The translations under genes were made by a program, and so were the position numbers. The notes beneath the pieces were generated by a model, which made no database searches, was not told the DNA's origin, and worked only from the letters and a program-made list of their open reading frames with translations. DNA of 64,000 nucleotides from Marinobacterium sediminicola (GTDB lineage: Bacteria; Pseudomonadota; Gammaproteobacteria; Pseudomonadales; Balneatricaceae): the NCBI RefSeq assembly GCF_022343685.1, contig NZ_CP092123.1, positions 1,984,001 to 2,048,000 of the forward strand, read 5' to 3'. Of the stretch, positions 22,184-27,670 are shown piece after piece (position 1 is the first letter of the stretch; each line of letters opens with the position of its first letter).

Positions 22184-22660
22184 TCAGCCCTCCCCTCGGC
22201 TCAGGGTAATTCGATCTGGCAAGGTATCGATCAACGCATAATCGAGCACTTCACCCGTAGCCTCTTTTTCAGCAGTCAGATCAGGGTGATATTCCAGGCG
22301 TGGTGTCGCTTTCTGCAAATGCCGCTCGCCGAGAAAGCACCCTTGAGGATCAATGGTCAATTTTTCGCTGCACACTCTGGCCCGGACCTTGCCGCCTCGC
22401 TCTATGTGCAGGGAATCACAGAAAACATCACCTTCTATCAGACCGCTGACATTGACATGCTGAGCGGTCAGAAAACCACGCACCACACCATGACGCCCGA
22501 TGGTCACATCATCTGTCACCTCAAGCCGTCCCTCGACAACACCATCGACATGCACCTTGCCACTGACACGCATATCACCCGACAGATGGTTCCCCCGAGC
22601 GATGATGGTTACTGCGTTCCGGCCTGATTTAGCGGATACATCGCGCTTAAGGATTCCCAA
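22184..22660 (-). CDS. Bactofilin family cytoskeletal protein
   Basis: Bactofilin (158 residues), a beta-helical polymer-forming protein often linked to cell shape and local peptidoglycan remodelling. The core (about 20-115) is a series of short hydrophobic-glycine repeats: GDMRVSGKVHVDGVVEGRLEV, GLIEGDVFCDSLHIERGGKV, with CSEKLTIDPQG. Tails are polar. The start is TTG at 22660, supported by GAGGAGG just upstream. The gene overlaps the 3' end of the M23 peptidase gene by 52 bases, indicating coupled expression; M23-bactofilin pairing is known in other proteobacteria. Confidence 0.9.
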   Translation of the reverse strand: MGILKRDVSAKSGRNAVTIIARGNHLSGDMRVSGKVHVDGVVEGRLEVTDDVTIGRHGVVRGFLTAQHVNVSGLIEGDVFCDSLHIERGGKVRARVCSEKLTIDPQGCFLGERHLQKATPRLEYHPDLTAEKEATGEVLDYALIDTLPDRITLSRGEG

Positions 22661-23541
22661 GGTACCTCCTCAACTTCTGTAAACAGGGCATTAAAACTGT
22701 CCAGCCCCCACTGCAGGAACGGCTCAGGATTCAAGGGACGATACATGAATCGCACTTCGTAGTGCAGATGTGCACCGGTAGAACGGCCACTATTCCCACT
22801 CAGCGCGATCTGCTGCCCCTTGTGTACAAAGGTGCCACTTTTGACCAACACCTTCTGCAAATGCGCGTAATAGGTTTTAAAGCCGAAATTATGCTGTAAA
22901 ACCACGAGGTTGCCAAAACCACTCCCCTTGCGATAGCCGGCGTACTCAACCACTCCGTCTGCAGTGGCATATACAGGGGTGCCGATATCCGCCTTGAAAT
23001 CCATGCCGTTGTGCATCTTTCGTGTCTTGAGAACCGGGTGCAAACGCATCCCATAGCTGTCATTCACTCTCTCTGCTGAAATAGGCACTCCGTTAGGGAT
23101 ACTGTGCAGAAGGAACAGCCTTTGCCGTGCGGCCATACGTGTCAACTGTAACCGCTCCTCCACACTCATTCCCTTGGGCTCCTGCAATAGCCCCAATCGA
23201 TTCTCCAGCGTACTGAGTGTCGCACCAATCTCCTGATTTTCCTCCAATAACCGCTCACGCTCAGCGCTGAGTTCAGACAGTGAGCTGCCCAATTCGTCCA
23301 GCTCAGAGATGTATAGCTGCTGCGTCCCGAGCAACAACTGATATTGCTCATTGAGATCCTGATGGTCTCGTGTCAGGTCTGACAGGTCATCATGGGTTTT
23401 GACCAGTAACCAGTTGGAAACGAAAAAACTGAGGCTTGAGAGCAGAACAAAGGTCAACAGCAGATAAGCCAAAAGCTGGTGCAGAAAAATTTGCCGCGAC
23501 CCATGGCGAGTCGTCATTGTCAGGACAAGTTTGCGTCGCAA
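22609..23541 (-). CDS. M23-family peptidoglycan endopeptidase, membrane anchored
   Basis: Periplasmic metallopeptidase, about 310 residues: a cytoplasmic basic stretch, one transmembrane helix (FLHQLLAYLLLTFVLLSSLSFF region), a periplasmic coiled coil (about 50-125, rich in Leu/Glu), then the M23/LytM domain with zinc ligands in HNGMDFKAD (H..D) and AHLHYEVRF (HxH). All catalytic positions appear intact, so this is likely an active DD- or LD-endopeptidase. The start is uncertain: TTG at 23541 has AGGG seven bases upstream; an ATG at 23517 and a TTG at 23571 are alternatives. It overlaps the bactofilin gene. Confidence 0.9.
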   Translation of the reverse strand: MRRKLVLTMTTRHGSRQIFLHQLLAYLLLTFVLLSSLSFFVSNWLLVKTHDDLSDLTRDHQDLNEQYQLLLGTQQLYISELDELGSSLSELSAERERLLEENQEIGATLSTLENRLGLLQEPKGMSVEERLQLTRMAARQRLFLLHSIPNGVPISAERVNDSYGMRLHPVLKTRKMHNGMDFKADIGTPVYATADGVVEYAGYRKGSGFGNLVVLQHNFGFKTYYAHLQKVLVKSGTFVHKGQQIALSGNSGRSTGAHLHYEVRFMYRPLNPEPFLQWGLDSFNALFTEVEEVPWESLSAMYPLNQAGTQ

Positions 23542-23706
23542 AAGAGATACCCTGTAAATCAAAATGAGCAACTATAAGCGATTACCGACACCAGCTCTAC
23601 GTACAAATCTGGCAGGACAACACCTTCATGCGCTGAACTCCCACAGCAGAGCCAGGTTTTACGTTAGACTTGGGCTCAGATTTCAGCAACGTTGCGGAGT
23701 AGAGGG

Positions 23707-26067
23707 ATGTTACCGCTCAGCATATTTTTCTCGGACGAATATAGACTGCTGTCTCGCCAACAGCTGGCAAAGGGCATCGGCCAATACTTTGTCCTGCCGG
23801 ATCAGACTCTGATGCTGGAATGGAAGACATTAAAAGACGCACTGCCCTCTTTGTCTGCCGGCGATATCATGGAAGCTGGGACACACCATATAGATGCCCC
23901 TCACTCAGAGCCCCCCTTAAATGCCGTAGAAGCCAACCAGCGGTTCAACGAATATCTGAAGCGACTGGAACAGGTGACTTCTTGCGTTCTGGTGATCAAC
24001 CCGGCCGACCTTCATCCACGATATGAAGCCCTGAATCGAAACCGAATTCGGGAAGGTATCTGTAACCGCCTGCACGTTCTGGCCCTGCAGGCCAGAGAGA
24101 ACATGCACCAGCTTGTGCTAAGAGCGCCCAATGAGGCTACAGTCGAACTTACGCTGGAGATTCTGGCGTGCACACTGACCTTGCCGGGCCTTGAACACTG
24201 GGGTCATTTGGGCATCTGTCTGCAGACATGCAGCAAGCGCGCACTTCCCACTCTGGGCTGGCTGGAACATCTGGGGCGCTCACTGAATACCAATATTCCC
24301 GTCAAGCTGATCAGCGGCATGCCGACCAGGGAAGAGATTCGTGAAGCCCAACACGCAGGCCATGTGTGTTACCCGGTTTTGACCAATCCTGACCATTGCC
24401 GAAGCAACTTTGAATGCTGTCACCAGTTTCTGCTTAGCAGCAACAATTCACGCCTGCGCGCAAGTCGCTTGCTGCACCGCCCGATACCTAAACACTATCA
24501 GGCTCCCCCGCCGCCATCCGATATCTTTTTGCCCATTCGCAGCAATGCAACGATGGCACCTGCGGGTCAAACCCTTGCCGATATCGCGTTAGCAAGAACC
24601 CTCCAAGCATATGGCGAAAAGCCGCTCAACGCCTATCCCGTGTTGAACGGCGAAAGTCTGGGCTCCCAAACGCATCTGGAACGCTCAAGCCCCATTGACG
24701 TCAGACGGACAATCGGTGAATTTCATCCCGCCAGCGAAGATCAGATCAGGCGCGCTTTTTCACTGGCTTCCGACGCTCAACCGCAGTGGAATCGACTGCT
24801 CATTGAGCACCGAATCGCGATCATTCAGCGCTGGACCGAGCGCCTGCAACAATCTCAGCACGAACTGCTCGCCTGCTGCATCCATGAGACAGGTTTAAGC
24901 ATTCGTGATGCCGCGTCAGATCTGCGCACTGCGATTAACCTCTGCCATTACTACTGTAATCAGGCACTCACCAAGCTTTCCTCTCGCCCCTTGCACGGTC
25001 ATCAGCAGGAAGCCAACCGACTCGAGCTGCATGGCAGAGGCATATACGTTGCCGTAACCGATCATAATGAACCCTTCGCTACTGCCATAGGCCAACTCTC
25101 GGCGCTATTGGTCTGTGGCAATGCGGTACTGTTGAATCCTGATCCTTGCTGTACAGCCAGCCTGAATCTCGTCATTGATCACCTTTTGAAATCGGGATTG
25201 CCATCAGGGCTGGTGTCCCTGCTCCCTGGCGACGAGCAGGTCTACCAGTGGATGCTGGAAGATTACCGCGTCGCTGGCGCCATCTGCTTTACGGACCCGG
25301 GACAAACCATTGCGATGAATGCTGTGCTCAGCAATCGCAAGGGCGCCCCGGTGGTGCCTTTGTTATCACACAGCAGCATCCCGGGCACCCAGATCATCAC
25401 GCGTCGCCTGACCACACTGGAAATACGTGAAACTCTCCAAAGCGCCTTCAGCCATTCAGGCCAAAAACGCACCAACCTTGGCATTCTATATATCGAAAGC
25501 ACCGTTGCAGACGAAATAGAGCAGCAATTAGCTGACAGTCTGCAGCTGCTGCAGATGGGAGACCCGCTGCAACTTGAGACGGATATCGGCCCGATGAGCC
25601 ATCGAAACCTGATGACACAATGCCATGAGCACATTGAGCGCTTCCGACTGCGTCAGAGAATCATTACCCAACTGGAACCGGGGGAAGAGCATGATCACGG
25701 GTACTATGTTTCCCCTACCTTGCTGCGTCTATACAGCCTTGATGAGCTGCCAACACCAACCCCCGGCCCGCTGCTGCATTTGATTCGTTTTGATCAAGAA
25801 GGTTTGGGCAGGGTCATTACGGAGATAAATCGCTATTGTCCGGGTCAGGCATGCAGCATTTACTCAAACGATGATGCCCTGATTGACCGGGCAGTGGATG
25901 GACTTCAGGCCAGTCGTCTGCTTGTTAACCGCCCGTTGTCCGACACCTGTGCCAGCATCCACCCGGCTGGCAGCTCCGGCTTCTCGGGGACGGGCCCTCT
26001 TTATGGAGGGCCCAACTACCTGATGGCATTCGTCCGCGAACGTGCCATCACTTGCCGACGGGAATAG
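23707..26067 (+). CDS. PutA-like protein with both active sites degenerate (pseudoenzyme)
   Basis: A 786-residue protein colinear with the proline dehydrogenase-P5C dehydrogenase part of PutA. The N-terminal half keeps PutA landmarks (LHPRYEAL near 103, GICLQTCSKRALPTLGWLEHLGR near 171, IPVKLISG), then a linker (SPIDVRRTIGEFHPAS) and an aldehyde-dehydrogenase-like half (IYVAVTDHNEPFATAIGQL, GLPSGLVSLLPGD). Catalytic residues are lost: the ALDH cysteine position reads HSGQKRTN (Arg about 588), the Glu position reads PLLSHSS (His about 555), the KPAEQTP NAD motif reads NPDPCCT, and the PRODH FAD segment lacks its Lys and the RR motif because the barrel is shortened. The frame is intact, so this is not an obvious dead gene. 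GGAG lies seven bases before the ATG. Function unknown. Confidence 0.8.
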   Translation: MLPLSIFFSDEYRLLSRQQLAKGIGQYFVLPDQTLMLEWKTLKDALPSLSAGDIMEAGTHHIDAPHSEPPLNAVEANQRFNEYLKRLEQVTSCVLVINPADLHPRYEALNRNRIREGICNRLHVLALQARENMHQLVLRAPNEATVELTLEILACTLTLPGLEHWGHLGICLQTCSKRALPTLGWLEHLGRSLNTNIPVKLISGMPTREEIREAQHAGHVCYPVLTNPDHCRSNFECCHQFLLSSNNSRLRASRLLHRPIPKHYQAPPPPSDIFLPIRSNATMAPAGQTLADIALARTLQAYGEKPLNAYPVLNGESLGSQTHLERSSPIDVRRTIGEFHPASEDQIRRAFSLASDAQPQWNRLLIEHRIAIIQRWTERLQQSQHELLACCIHETGLSIRDAASDLRTAINLCHYYCNQALTKLSSRPLHGHQQEANRLELHGRGIYVAVTDHNEPFATAIGQLSALLVCGNAVLLNPDPCCTASLNLVIDHLLKSGLPSGLVSLLPGDEQVYQWMLEDYRVAGAICFTDPGQTIAMNAVLSNRKGAPVVPLLSHSSIPGTQIITRRLTTLEIRETLQSAFSHSGQKRTNLGILYIESTVADEIEQQLADSLQLLQMGDPLQLETDIGPMSHRNLMTQCHEHIERFRLRQRIITQLEPGEEHDHGYYVSPTLLRLYSLDELPTPTPGPLLHLIRFDQEGLGRVITEINRYCPGQACSIYSNDDALIDRAVDGLQASRLLVNRPLSDTCASIHPAGSSGFSGTGPLYGGPNYLMAFVRERAITCRRE

Positions 26068-26068
26068 G

Positions 26069-27454
26069 CTAGGAAGTTCTGCTTGCTTTCGCCAGACGGA
26101 AGCAAGGCTCATACTCTTCGTGATTTATTTTCATGCGACGCTGATCGACAAAGGCCTGCAACAACCTGTCCAGCGCTTCGATCACGTCCGGCTCTCCATG
26201 CAGCTCAAAAGGCCCGTGCTCTTCAATGGCTCGAATGCCCGGCTCCTTGACGTTACCGGCCACTATCCCGGACAACGCACAACGCAGCTGTGCCGCCAGT
26301 TCATGATCGGGCTGACGGCGTGACAGGCACAACTCACGCATGGCGTCATGCGTCGGCTCGAACGTCTGCTGCAACACCAGCGGTATATGCAGTTGCCAGT
26401 TGTAGTGATAGGCCTCACCGGTTGCCTTGCGGTGGGTGGTGACTTCAGCAAGACCATCTCGCATGCGCGTCGCCACTTCGTGCGCATCATCAATGATGAT
26501 CTGGTAGCACTGCGCTGCCCGCTCACCCAACGTCGCGCGAATGAAACGATCCACTGTTTCAAAGTATTCTTCACTGCCCGCAGGGCCGGTAAAGATCAAT
26601 GGAAACGGATGAGCACTGTTTCGCTCCTGCAGCAGGATGCCAAGAATGTAGAGAATCTCTTCTGCTGTTCCCACCCCCCCCGGGAATACGACAATGCCGT
26701 GCCCCAGGCGAACAAACGCCTCAAGCCTGCGCTCGATATCAGGCATAATGATCAATTCATTGACAATCGGATTGGGAGACTCGGCCGCAATGATGCCCGG
26801 CTCGGAGATACCGACGTAACGGCCATCCAGGAGACGTTGCTTGGCATGCGCAATGGTTGCCCCTTTCATCGGCCCCTTCATTGCGCCGGGCCCGCAGCCA
26901 GTACAGATGTCCATTCCCCGTAGCCCCAGTTCATACCCCACGTGCTTGGTGTACTCGTATTCTGCATGGCCAATCGAGTGACCACCCCAGCACACCACCA
27001 TATTGGGTTTCACATGAGGCCTGAAAGCGTCTGCATGCCTGAGCAGATTGAATACCTGGTTGGTGATCATGGCCGATGGATCCAGCCCTTCACAGCAGTA
27101 TTCGACCTTATCGGCGACATACAACAGGTCTCTGAGCACTGAGAACAGGTGCTCGTTGATACCCTGTATCAACTCACCATCGACAAAAGCGGTTGCCGGG
27201 GCATTGATCAGATCCAGCTGTACTCCACGATGCTTCTGACTGATCTGAATATCGAAGTCGCGAAAACGGTCAAGCACCTTGCGAGTGCTGTCCAGTTCAC
27301 TGCCGCAGTTGAGCACCGCCAGGGCACACTGGCGGAAAAGGTTGTAGAGCCCACCCTGGCTTTTATCCTGCAGTCTGGCCACTTCGTAGGGAGAAAGAAC
27401 ATCGAGATTGTCCAGCGGCGTCACGCTGGACGTAATGTAGTGCTCGGTCATCAT
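26069..27454 (-). CDS. ppnN: Pyrimidine/purine nucleotide 5'-monophosphate nucleosidase
   Basis: LOG-family nucleosidase (461 residues; E. coli PpnN/YgdH is 454) that cleaves NMPs to base and ribose-5-phosphate and is activated by ppGpp. The central LOG domain shows CWGGHSIGHAEYEYTKHVG, GCGPGAMKGPMKGA and the active-site motif FPGGVGTAEE. The extra N- and C-terminal regions match the long PpnN type. AGGAGG precedes two adjacent ATGs (27454 and 27451). It converges on the PutA-like gene with one base between stops and diverges from the PIN-PhoH gene. Confidence 0.94.
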   Translation of the reverse strand: MMTEHYITSSVTPLDNLDVLSPYEVARLQDKSQGGLYNLFRQCALAVLNCGSELDSTRKVLDRFRDFDIQISQKHRGVQLDLINAPATAFVDGELIQGINEHLFSVLRDLLYVADKVEYCCEGLDPSAMITNQVFNLLRHADAFRPHVKPNMVVCWGGHSIGHAEYEYTKHVGYELGLRGMDICTGCGPGAMKGPMKGATIAHAKQRLLDGRYVGISEPGIIAAESPNPIVNELIIMPDIERRLEAFVRLGHGIVVFPGGVGTAEEILYILGILLQERNSAHPFPLIFTGPAGSEEYFETVDRFIRATLGERAAQCYQIIIDDAHEVATRMRDGLAEVTTHRKATGEAYHYNWQLHIPLVLQQTFEPTHDAMRELCLSRRQPDHELAAQLRCALSGIVAGNVKEPGIRAIEEHGPFELHGEPDVIEALDRLLQAFVDQRRMKINHEEYEPCFRLAKASRTS

Positions 27455-27670
27455 GCTGACCTCCTTGTTCCGTGCGGATACTGCTAAACACATGAAAGTA
27501 CGTGTCTATTTAACTATGAACTCACTCGATGAGATTTACTACCATCTCGTGACAAGCCGATGACAGCCACCAGGCTCAAGCCGCTGCCAGAAACCCGCTG
27601 ATGGCAATTGTAATTGCGCCCACCTTGAATTAGCTTGAATACAACAACCGCTGTACAAGGAAGCCCTTCG

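Follow-up and report, generated by a model that had tools for sequence, protein, structure and literature searches.

A shortened PutA-like gene lies between M23 peptidase and ppnN genes

The window, a 64-kb stretch of DNA, comes from a genome made up of one contig of 3.55 Mb. On its plus strand, an open reading frame at 23707-26067 encodes a PutA-like protein of 786 residues plus a stop codon, an identity drawn from Pfam, the closest structure and the orthologues. As originally predicted, the frame is unbroken, with no stop or shift. The likely start is the ATG at 23707, supported by a GGAG Shine-Dalgarno sequence (23696-23699, plus strand), which lies 7 nt 5' of the ATG and is kept in all five carriers of the window's genus, and by a conserved TAGACT 5' of the gene. 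This TAGACT (23664-23669, plus strand) resembles a -10 element and may belong to a promoter. When upstream sequences were compared by eye, TAGACT or TAAACT was found in most homologues inspected, in the window's genus and in much of a second genus that carries the gene; a consensus scan of the upstream sequences did not report the element. A TTG at 23692, given by the mechanical ORF list, was rejected as the start in favour of the ATG. The divergent neighbour encodes an M23 peptidase (22609-23571, minus strand) and the convergent neighbour the nucleosidase ppnN (26069-27493, minus strand). The M23 frame overlaps that of a bactofilin (22184-22660) by about 50 bases, an arrangement common to other genera examined.

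The protein had been described as resembling PutA over both the PRODH and P5C-dehydrogenase parts, and Pfam profiles for both modules do match within the one chain. The Aldedh match spans residues 322-779 (184 bits), and the Pro_dh match spans residues 72-246 (57 bits) but is partial, covering only profile positions 26-191 of 278. The best match among solved structures is B. japonicum PutA. The protein scores far under all PutA equivalog cut-offs of NCBIfam, reaching 403.8 bits for NF008869, where the cut-off is 747. No PADLOC defence-system model matched. The description of the protein as full-length was wrong: it has 786 residues versus about 1045, deletions having removed the larger part of the arm/alpha region and the C-terminal portion of PRODH.

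The catalytic residues of both modules are missing

Our alignment contained 13 short homologues, including the window protein, eight canonical PutAs encoded in those genomes and 11 PutAs that related genera carry at the equivalent locus; further rows were aligned as well. In SmPutA, Cys844 is the ALDH nucleophile and Glu810 drives hydrolysis of the acyl-enzyme (PMC12398946). Alignment with intact PutAs, including the copy from the same genome, places Arg588 (25468-25470, plus strand) at the position of the Cys and His555 (25369-25371, plus strand) at that of the Glu, exactly the replacements first proposed. The NAD-binding Lys and Glu motifs are also absent, as had been claimed. Relative to intact PutAs, PWNFP has become DHNEP, KPAEQT has become NPDPCC, FTGST has become FTDPG and EQFGP has become TPTPGP, which deprives the module of its KPA Lys, GST loop and EQFGP Glu.

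In the PRODH module, proline is bound by the Lys of SIKLSAL and by Arg residues of the RR helix (PMC12398946, PMC5786444). Here SIKLSAL reads VINPADL, with Asn98 in place of the Lys, and RLVKGAYW reads KLISGMPT. The segments FASHNAHT and YLVRRLLENG are missing altogether. The original prediction was right that the FAD and RR motifs are lacking, but because the C-terminal part of PRODH is deleted, the RR helix and the FAD-binding end of the barrel have been removed rather than mutated.

These losses are not peculiar to one genome. The ALDH Cys and Glu are replaced in 13 of 13 short forms; in the 12 others the Cys has become Arg, Pro or His and the Glu has become His, Asn or Asp. All 12 have likewise lost the PRODH Lys and RR helix. 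Since no short-form orthologue has intact catalytic residues, the possibility that a normal putA was misread or misassembled is excluded for practical purposes: the same kind of protein occurs at the same place in twelve independent genomes, and an intact putA lies elsewhere on the same contig. The pocket residues, including the oxyanion Asn, differ among three groups of short forms. Two of the three groups retain the Gly-rich SGTGPxxGG segment, and two of the three retain the Lys of KPA.

The chain is predicted to retain the PutA fold

AlphaFold2 modelled the 786-residue protein with a pLDDT of 87.9 and a pTM of 0.87, with confidence in the helices of the arm, in a PRODH remnant of five strands and in the whole ALDH module. 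In the alignment and the model, an N-terminal helical arm with a conserved MLPLSxxxSxExxxL motif (residues 1-45; 23707-23841, plus strand) appears as a remnant of the PutA arm, and the arm/alpha region beyond it is deleted. The PRODH remnant (residues 73-256; 23923-24474, plus strand) has five predicted strands versus the eight of the barrel and lacks the RR helix and HNAHT segment. The ALDH (GSAL dehydrogenase) module (residues 301-786; 24607-26064, plus strand) is predicted to have an intact fold with a lost active site. Searches with Foldseek and VIA-align matched the model to structures of PutA and GSAL dehydrogenase (TM about 0.8, Z 44-48), and about 700-745 of the 786 residues aligned with PutA chains.

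Because the alignment behind this model contained intact PutAs, the prediction was repeated for a distant short form with pseudoenzymes only. The pLDDT was 80.2 and the order of elements was unchanged, so the overall PutA fold is predicted in both cases. The model leaves no place for the N-terminal ribbon-helix-helix domain of trifunctional PutA regulators; the helical arm starts at residue 4, and neither of the two Pfam domains is DNA-binding. A homologous fold from which conserved catalytic motifs have been lost agrees with the definition of a pseudoenzyme (PMC10211241), and on sequence grounds we regard this protein as a conserved PutA pseudoenzyme that presumably lacks enzymatic activity.

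Homology to the bifunctional PutAs of B. japonicum and S. meliloti extends over the arm, PRODH and ALDH, and some 740 of the 786 residues in the model can be superposed on PutA structures (Z about 45). What sets the protein apart from these PutAs is its shorter chain, of 786 residues rather than about 1000 or more, and the loss of part of the arm, of the barrel's FAD-binding end, of the NAD motifs and of every catalytic residue that was checked.

The gene occupies a fixed position in a few genera

The 13 short, doubly dead homologues fall in three genera, so that the pseudoenzyme was found in few genera, all of marine Marinobacterium-like bacteria. Within the window's genus, whose members include Marinobacterium weihaiense, M. 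iners and M. marinum, five of eight genomes carry the gene, all with open frames, and the other four copies are 52-64% identical to that of the window. The second genus has six carriers (M. mangrovicola, lutimaris, zhoushanense, lacunae, litorale and one MAG) and the third has two MAGs; their short forms are 30-35% identical to the window protein. Elsewhere in the order, none was seen among matches with E <= 1e-70 in 244 sampled genomes, a threshold that distant forms could escape.

Gene order is the same in 13 of 13 short-form genomes, although one short MAG contig (L057) stops before the outer flanking genes. One flank consists of the M23, bactofilin, glutamine amidotransferase and AMP-ligase genes, the other of ppnN and then phoH and mqo; M23 and ppnN are fixed neighbours of the locus. 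In the three remaining genomes of the window's genus (L066, L067 and L068, from G001, G002 and G006), M23 directly adjoins ppnN. The gene has thus been cleanly lost from three of eight genomes and, given these members, is dispensable.

The pseudoenzyme most probably evolved in place

A search for a canonical putA elsewhere in the genome, as the original prediction had suggested, found an intact copy on the same contig at about 345-348 kb, with all motifs present. Full-length canonical Pro_dh matches occur elsewhere in 12 of 13 carriers, the exception being an incomplete MAG. The type of canonical PutA varies among carriers, at about 1050, 1146 or 1212 residues. Several species of the second Marinobacterium genus (G011, G062, G072) have two canonical PutAs, of about 1050 and at least 1212 residues, and close species in that genus differ in which one is present.

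In other genera of the family, including Pontibacterium and Amphritea, ppnN adjoins the gene for an intact PutA of 1037-1048 residues, and M23 is found within a few genes. These locus PutAs are generally 30-35% identical to the pseudoenzyme, versus 28% for the canonical copy of the window's genome. In a tree of the ALDH module, the short forms made up one clade (support 100/100), and a 100/99 branch separated the short forms and most locus PutAs from the canonical second PutAs and outgroups. Since an intact PutA holds the same M23-ppnN place in related genera, we conclude that the pseudoenzyme arose there; very likely it descends from a bifunctional, active PutA at that site and was retained without catalysis.

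The ancestor would have had one PutA at the M23-ppnN position and another elsewhere, and catalysis could be lost, likely because this second PutA made the M23-ppnN copy redundant. The latter would then have lost both active sites, the FAD-binding end of the PRODH barrel, most of the arm and the C-terminal NTTAxGGNxxLL on the lineage that gave rise to Marinobacterium and two relatives, yet its reading frame stayed intact and it retained the PutA fold and start signals of its own.

Loci with an intact PutA (L073:3072-6135, L071:8136-9320) have a thiolase between PutA and M23, and several intact-locus genera also have a Mem_trans transporter and an AIM24-family gene there. None of these genes is found beside the pseudoenzyme.

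Active sites were lost separately in Amphritea

The Amphritea locus lost active sites independently of the short forms. In Amphritea atlantica and a relative (L092:5470-8478, L089:5482-8481), the PutA at this locus has about 1000 residues, with the catalytic Cys replaced by Gly and the RR motif absent. A MAG (L091:5284-8295) has lost RR and the Glu and retained the Cys, L103:5446-8589 has lost both active sites, and the locus PutA of Amphritea balenae (L094) is intact. The Amphritea-type locus PutAs thus represent successive stages of active-site loss in chains that are still about 1000 residues long. Nearly every intact PutA of the M23-ppnN locus carries a C-terminal NTTAxGGNxxLL motif, which neither dead lineage has kept. 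With intact, half-dead and fully dead copies at a single position, the locus provides an unusually clean series in which to study the passage from enzyme to non-enzyme.

A tree constrained to unite the three dead Amphritea-type rows with the short forms, as under a single loss, was rejected (p-AU 0.003). When the intact Amphritea rows and L103 were held together with these, the grouping was not rejected (p-AU 0.15). In a codon model, omega for the dead Amphritea copies was 0.255, suggesting that they are under weaker constraint.

The gene is maintained by purifying selection

With the same codon model, omega was 0.114 in the window's genus (lnL -10023 versus -10479 at omega = 1, 456 log units worse) and 0.064 in the second genus (-13997 versus -14794, 796 log units worse). 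Canonical PutAs gave 0.045-0.061, the flanking bactofilin 0.145 and a fadD-like gene 0.084. Because most pairwise dS values within the genus were saturated, we quote, besides the codon-model values, only close species pairs. One had 6 nonsynonymous and 32 synonymous changes (dN/dS 0.065) and another had 167 and 326 (0.104). Simulated neutral drift at 0.2 substitutions per site produced about 11 stops and left no copy open. The dN/dS values and the simulation reject neutral decay and contradict random, unconstrained change. These data indicate that the pseudoenzyme is maintained by purifying selection, as originally claimed, and is not a pseudogene.

A redundant PutA that is still unbroken but slowly decaying would agree with the clean losses in three genus members, with the raised omega of the dead Amphritea copies (about 0.26) and with the rate of divergence, which is faster than that of canonical PutA (52-64% identity, versus 75-94% for most flanking genes). 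However, the short-form omega of 0.06-0.11 lies within the range of the flanking bactofilin and fadD-like genes, the 13 homologues contain no stops where drift would give many, and the start signals are conserved. Slow decay is therefore very improbable. Taken together, the orthologues, dN/dS, gene order, canonical putA elsewhere and confident PutA-fold model bear out the proposal of a PutA-derived pseudoenzyme.

Possible roles of the pseudoenzyme

The pseudoenzyme very probably serves some purpose other than catalysis. Purifying selection without catalysis suggests that it works by binding, and we infer from this that it is expressed and has a partner. A putative role as a regulator, scaffold or binding partner fits these data, and the best explanation is a non-catalytic binding protein kept after a second PutA took over catalysis. 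If so, the PutA scaffold has a selected role apart from proline oxidation.

A repurposed enzyme that catalyses a different reaction through other residues would account for the strong selection and for clade-specific conserved residues such as P99, E143, E597 and Y676. Yet few polar residues are both clade-specific and invariant, we found no new conserved cluster that looks catalytic, and cofactor motifs have gone from both modules, which makes such a change of reaction a slim prospect. Alternatively, the protein could be a metabolite sensor whose dead cavities have kept an affinity for proline, GSAL/glutamate or NAD(H), with binding altering its interactions. Proline is a known ligand of the GSAL site in BjPutA (PMC5786444), and the fold, the SGTGPxxGG segment and the KPA Lys are retained, the latter two in two of three groups. 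The substitutions at the Cys, the Glu and the oxyanion Asn nevertheless vary among the groups, and because no one pocket is conserved across all three, ligand sensing seems unlikely.

For a binding protein, the predicted flap and C-terminal strand of the ALDH core make a mixed oligomer our first choice. Through the ALDH core and these two elements, the flap being a beta-hairpin, the pseudoenzyme could combine with catalytic PutA, or with other chains of PutA fold, into mixed oligomers and would thereby tune the assembly, localisation or activity of the partner chains. Flap and strand are the elements through which dimers of type-A PutA form; the dimer is domain-swapped (PMC5786444). Against such pairing, both elements are altered in the Marinobacterium mangrovicola group (second genus), and canonical PutA differs in type among carriers. 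The mixed oligomer is therefore a leading but tentative guess. Catalytically dead paralogues are known to tune active enzymes, as with trypanosomatid deoxyhypusine synthase, whose dead paralogue forms a heterotetramer with the active copy (PMC3663545). Here, too, an inactive copy exists beside an active one, though their pairing is hypothetical.

A second, non-enzymatic role of PutA, as transcriptional regulator, is described for trifunctional PutA and for R. solanacearum PutA (PMC5293562, PMC9132996). Unlike trifunctional PutA, the pseudoenzyme begins at the helical arm, with no space for a ribbon-helix-helix DNA-binding domain. It is possible, if far from assured, that the protein is a dedicated non-catalytic regulator or scaffold that inherited a moonlighting role of the ancestral PutA, with catalysis lost at least twice at the locus (in the Marinobacterium lineage and in Amphritea) and intermediates still extant. 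Next in likelihood after the mixed oligomer, though neither is probable, come ligand sensing and a binding function of another kind that the ancestral PutA had from the start.

Pseudoenzymes and dead ALDHs are already known; a doubly dead PutA, or any PutA pseudoenzyme, was not found in the literature searched, 5.4 million papers that include a minority of the subscription literature. Human ALDH16A1 is a pseudoenzyme of the ALDH superfamily thought to act through protein interactions (PMC10650815). Both proteins have an ALDH fold without catalytic residues, but ALDH16A1 belongs to a different ALDH family, is eukaryotic and carries no PRODH remnant.
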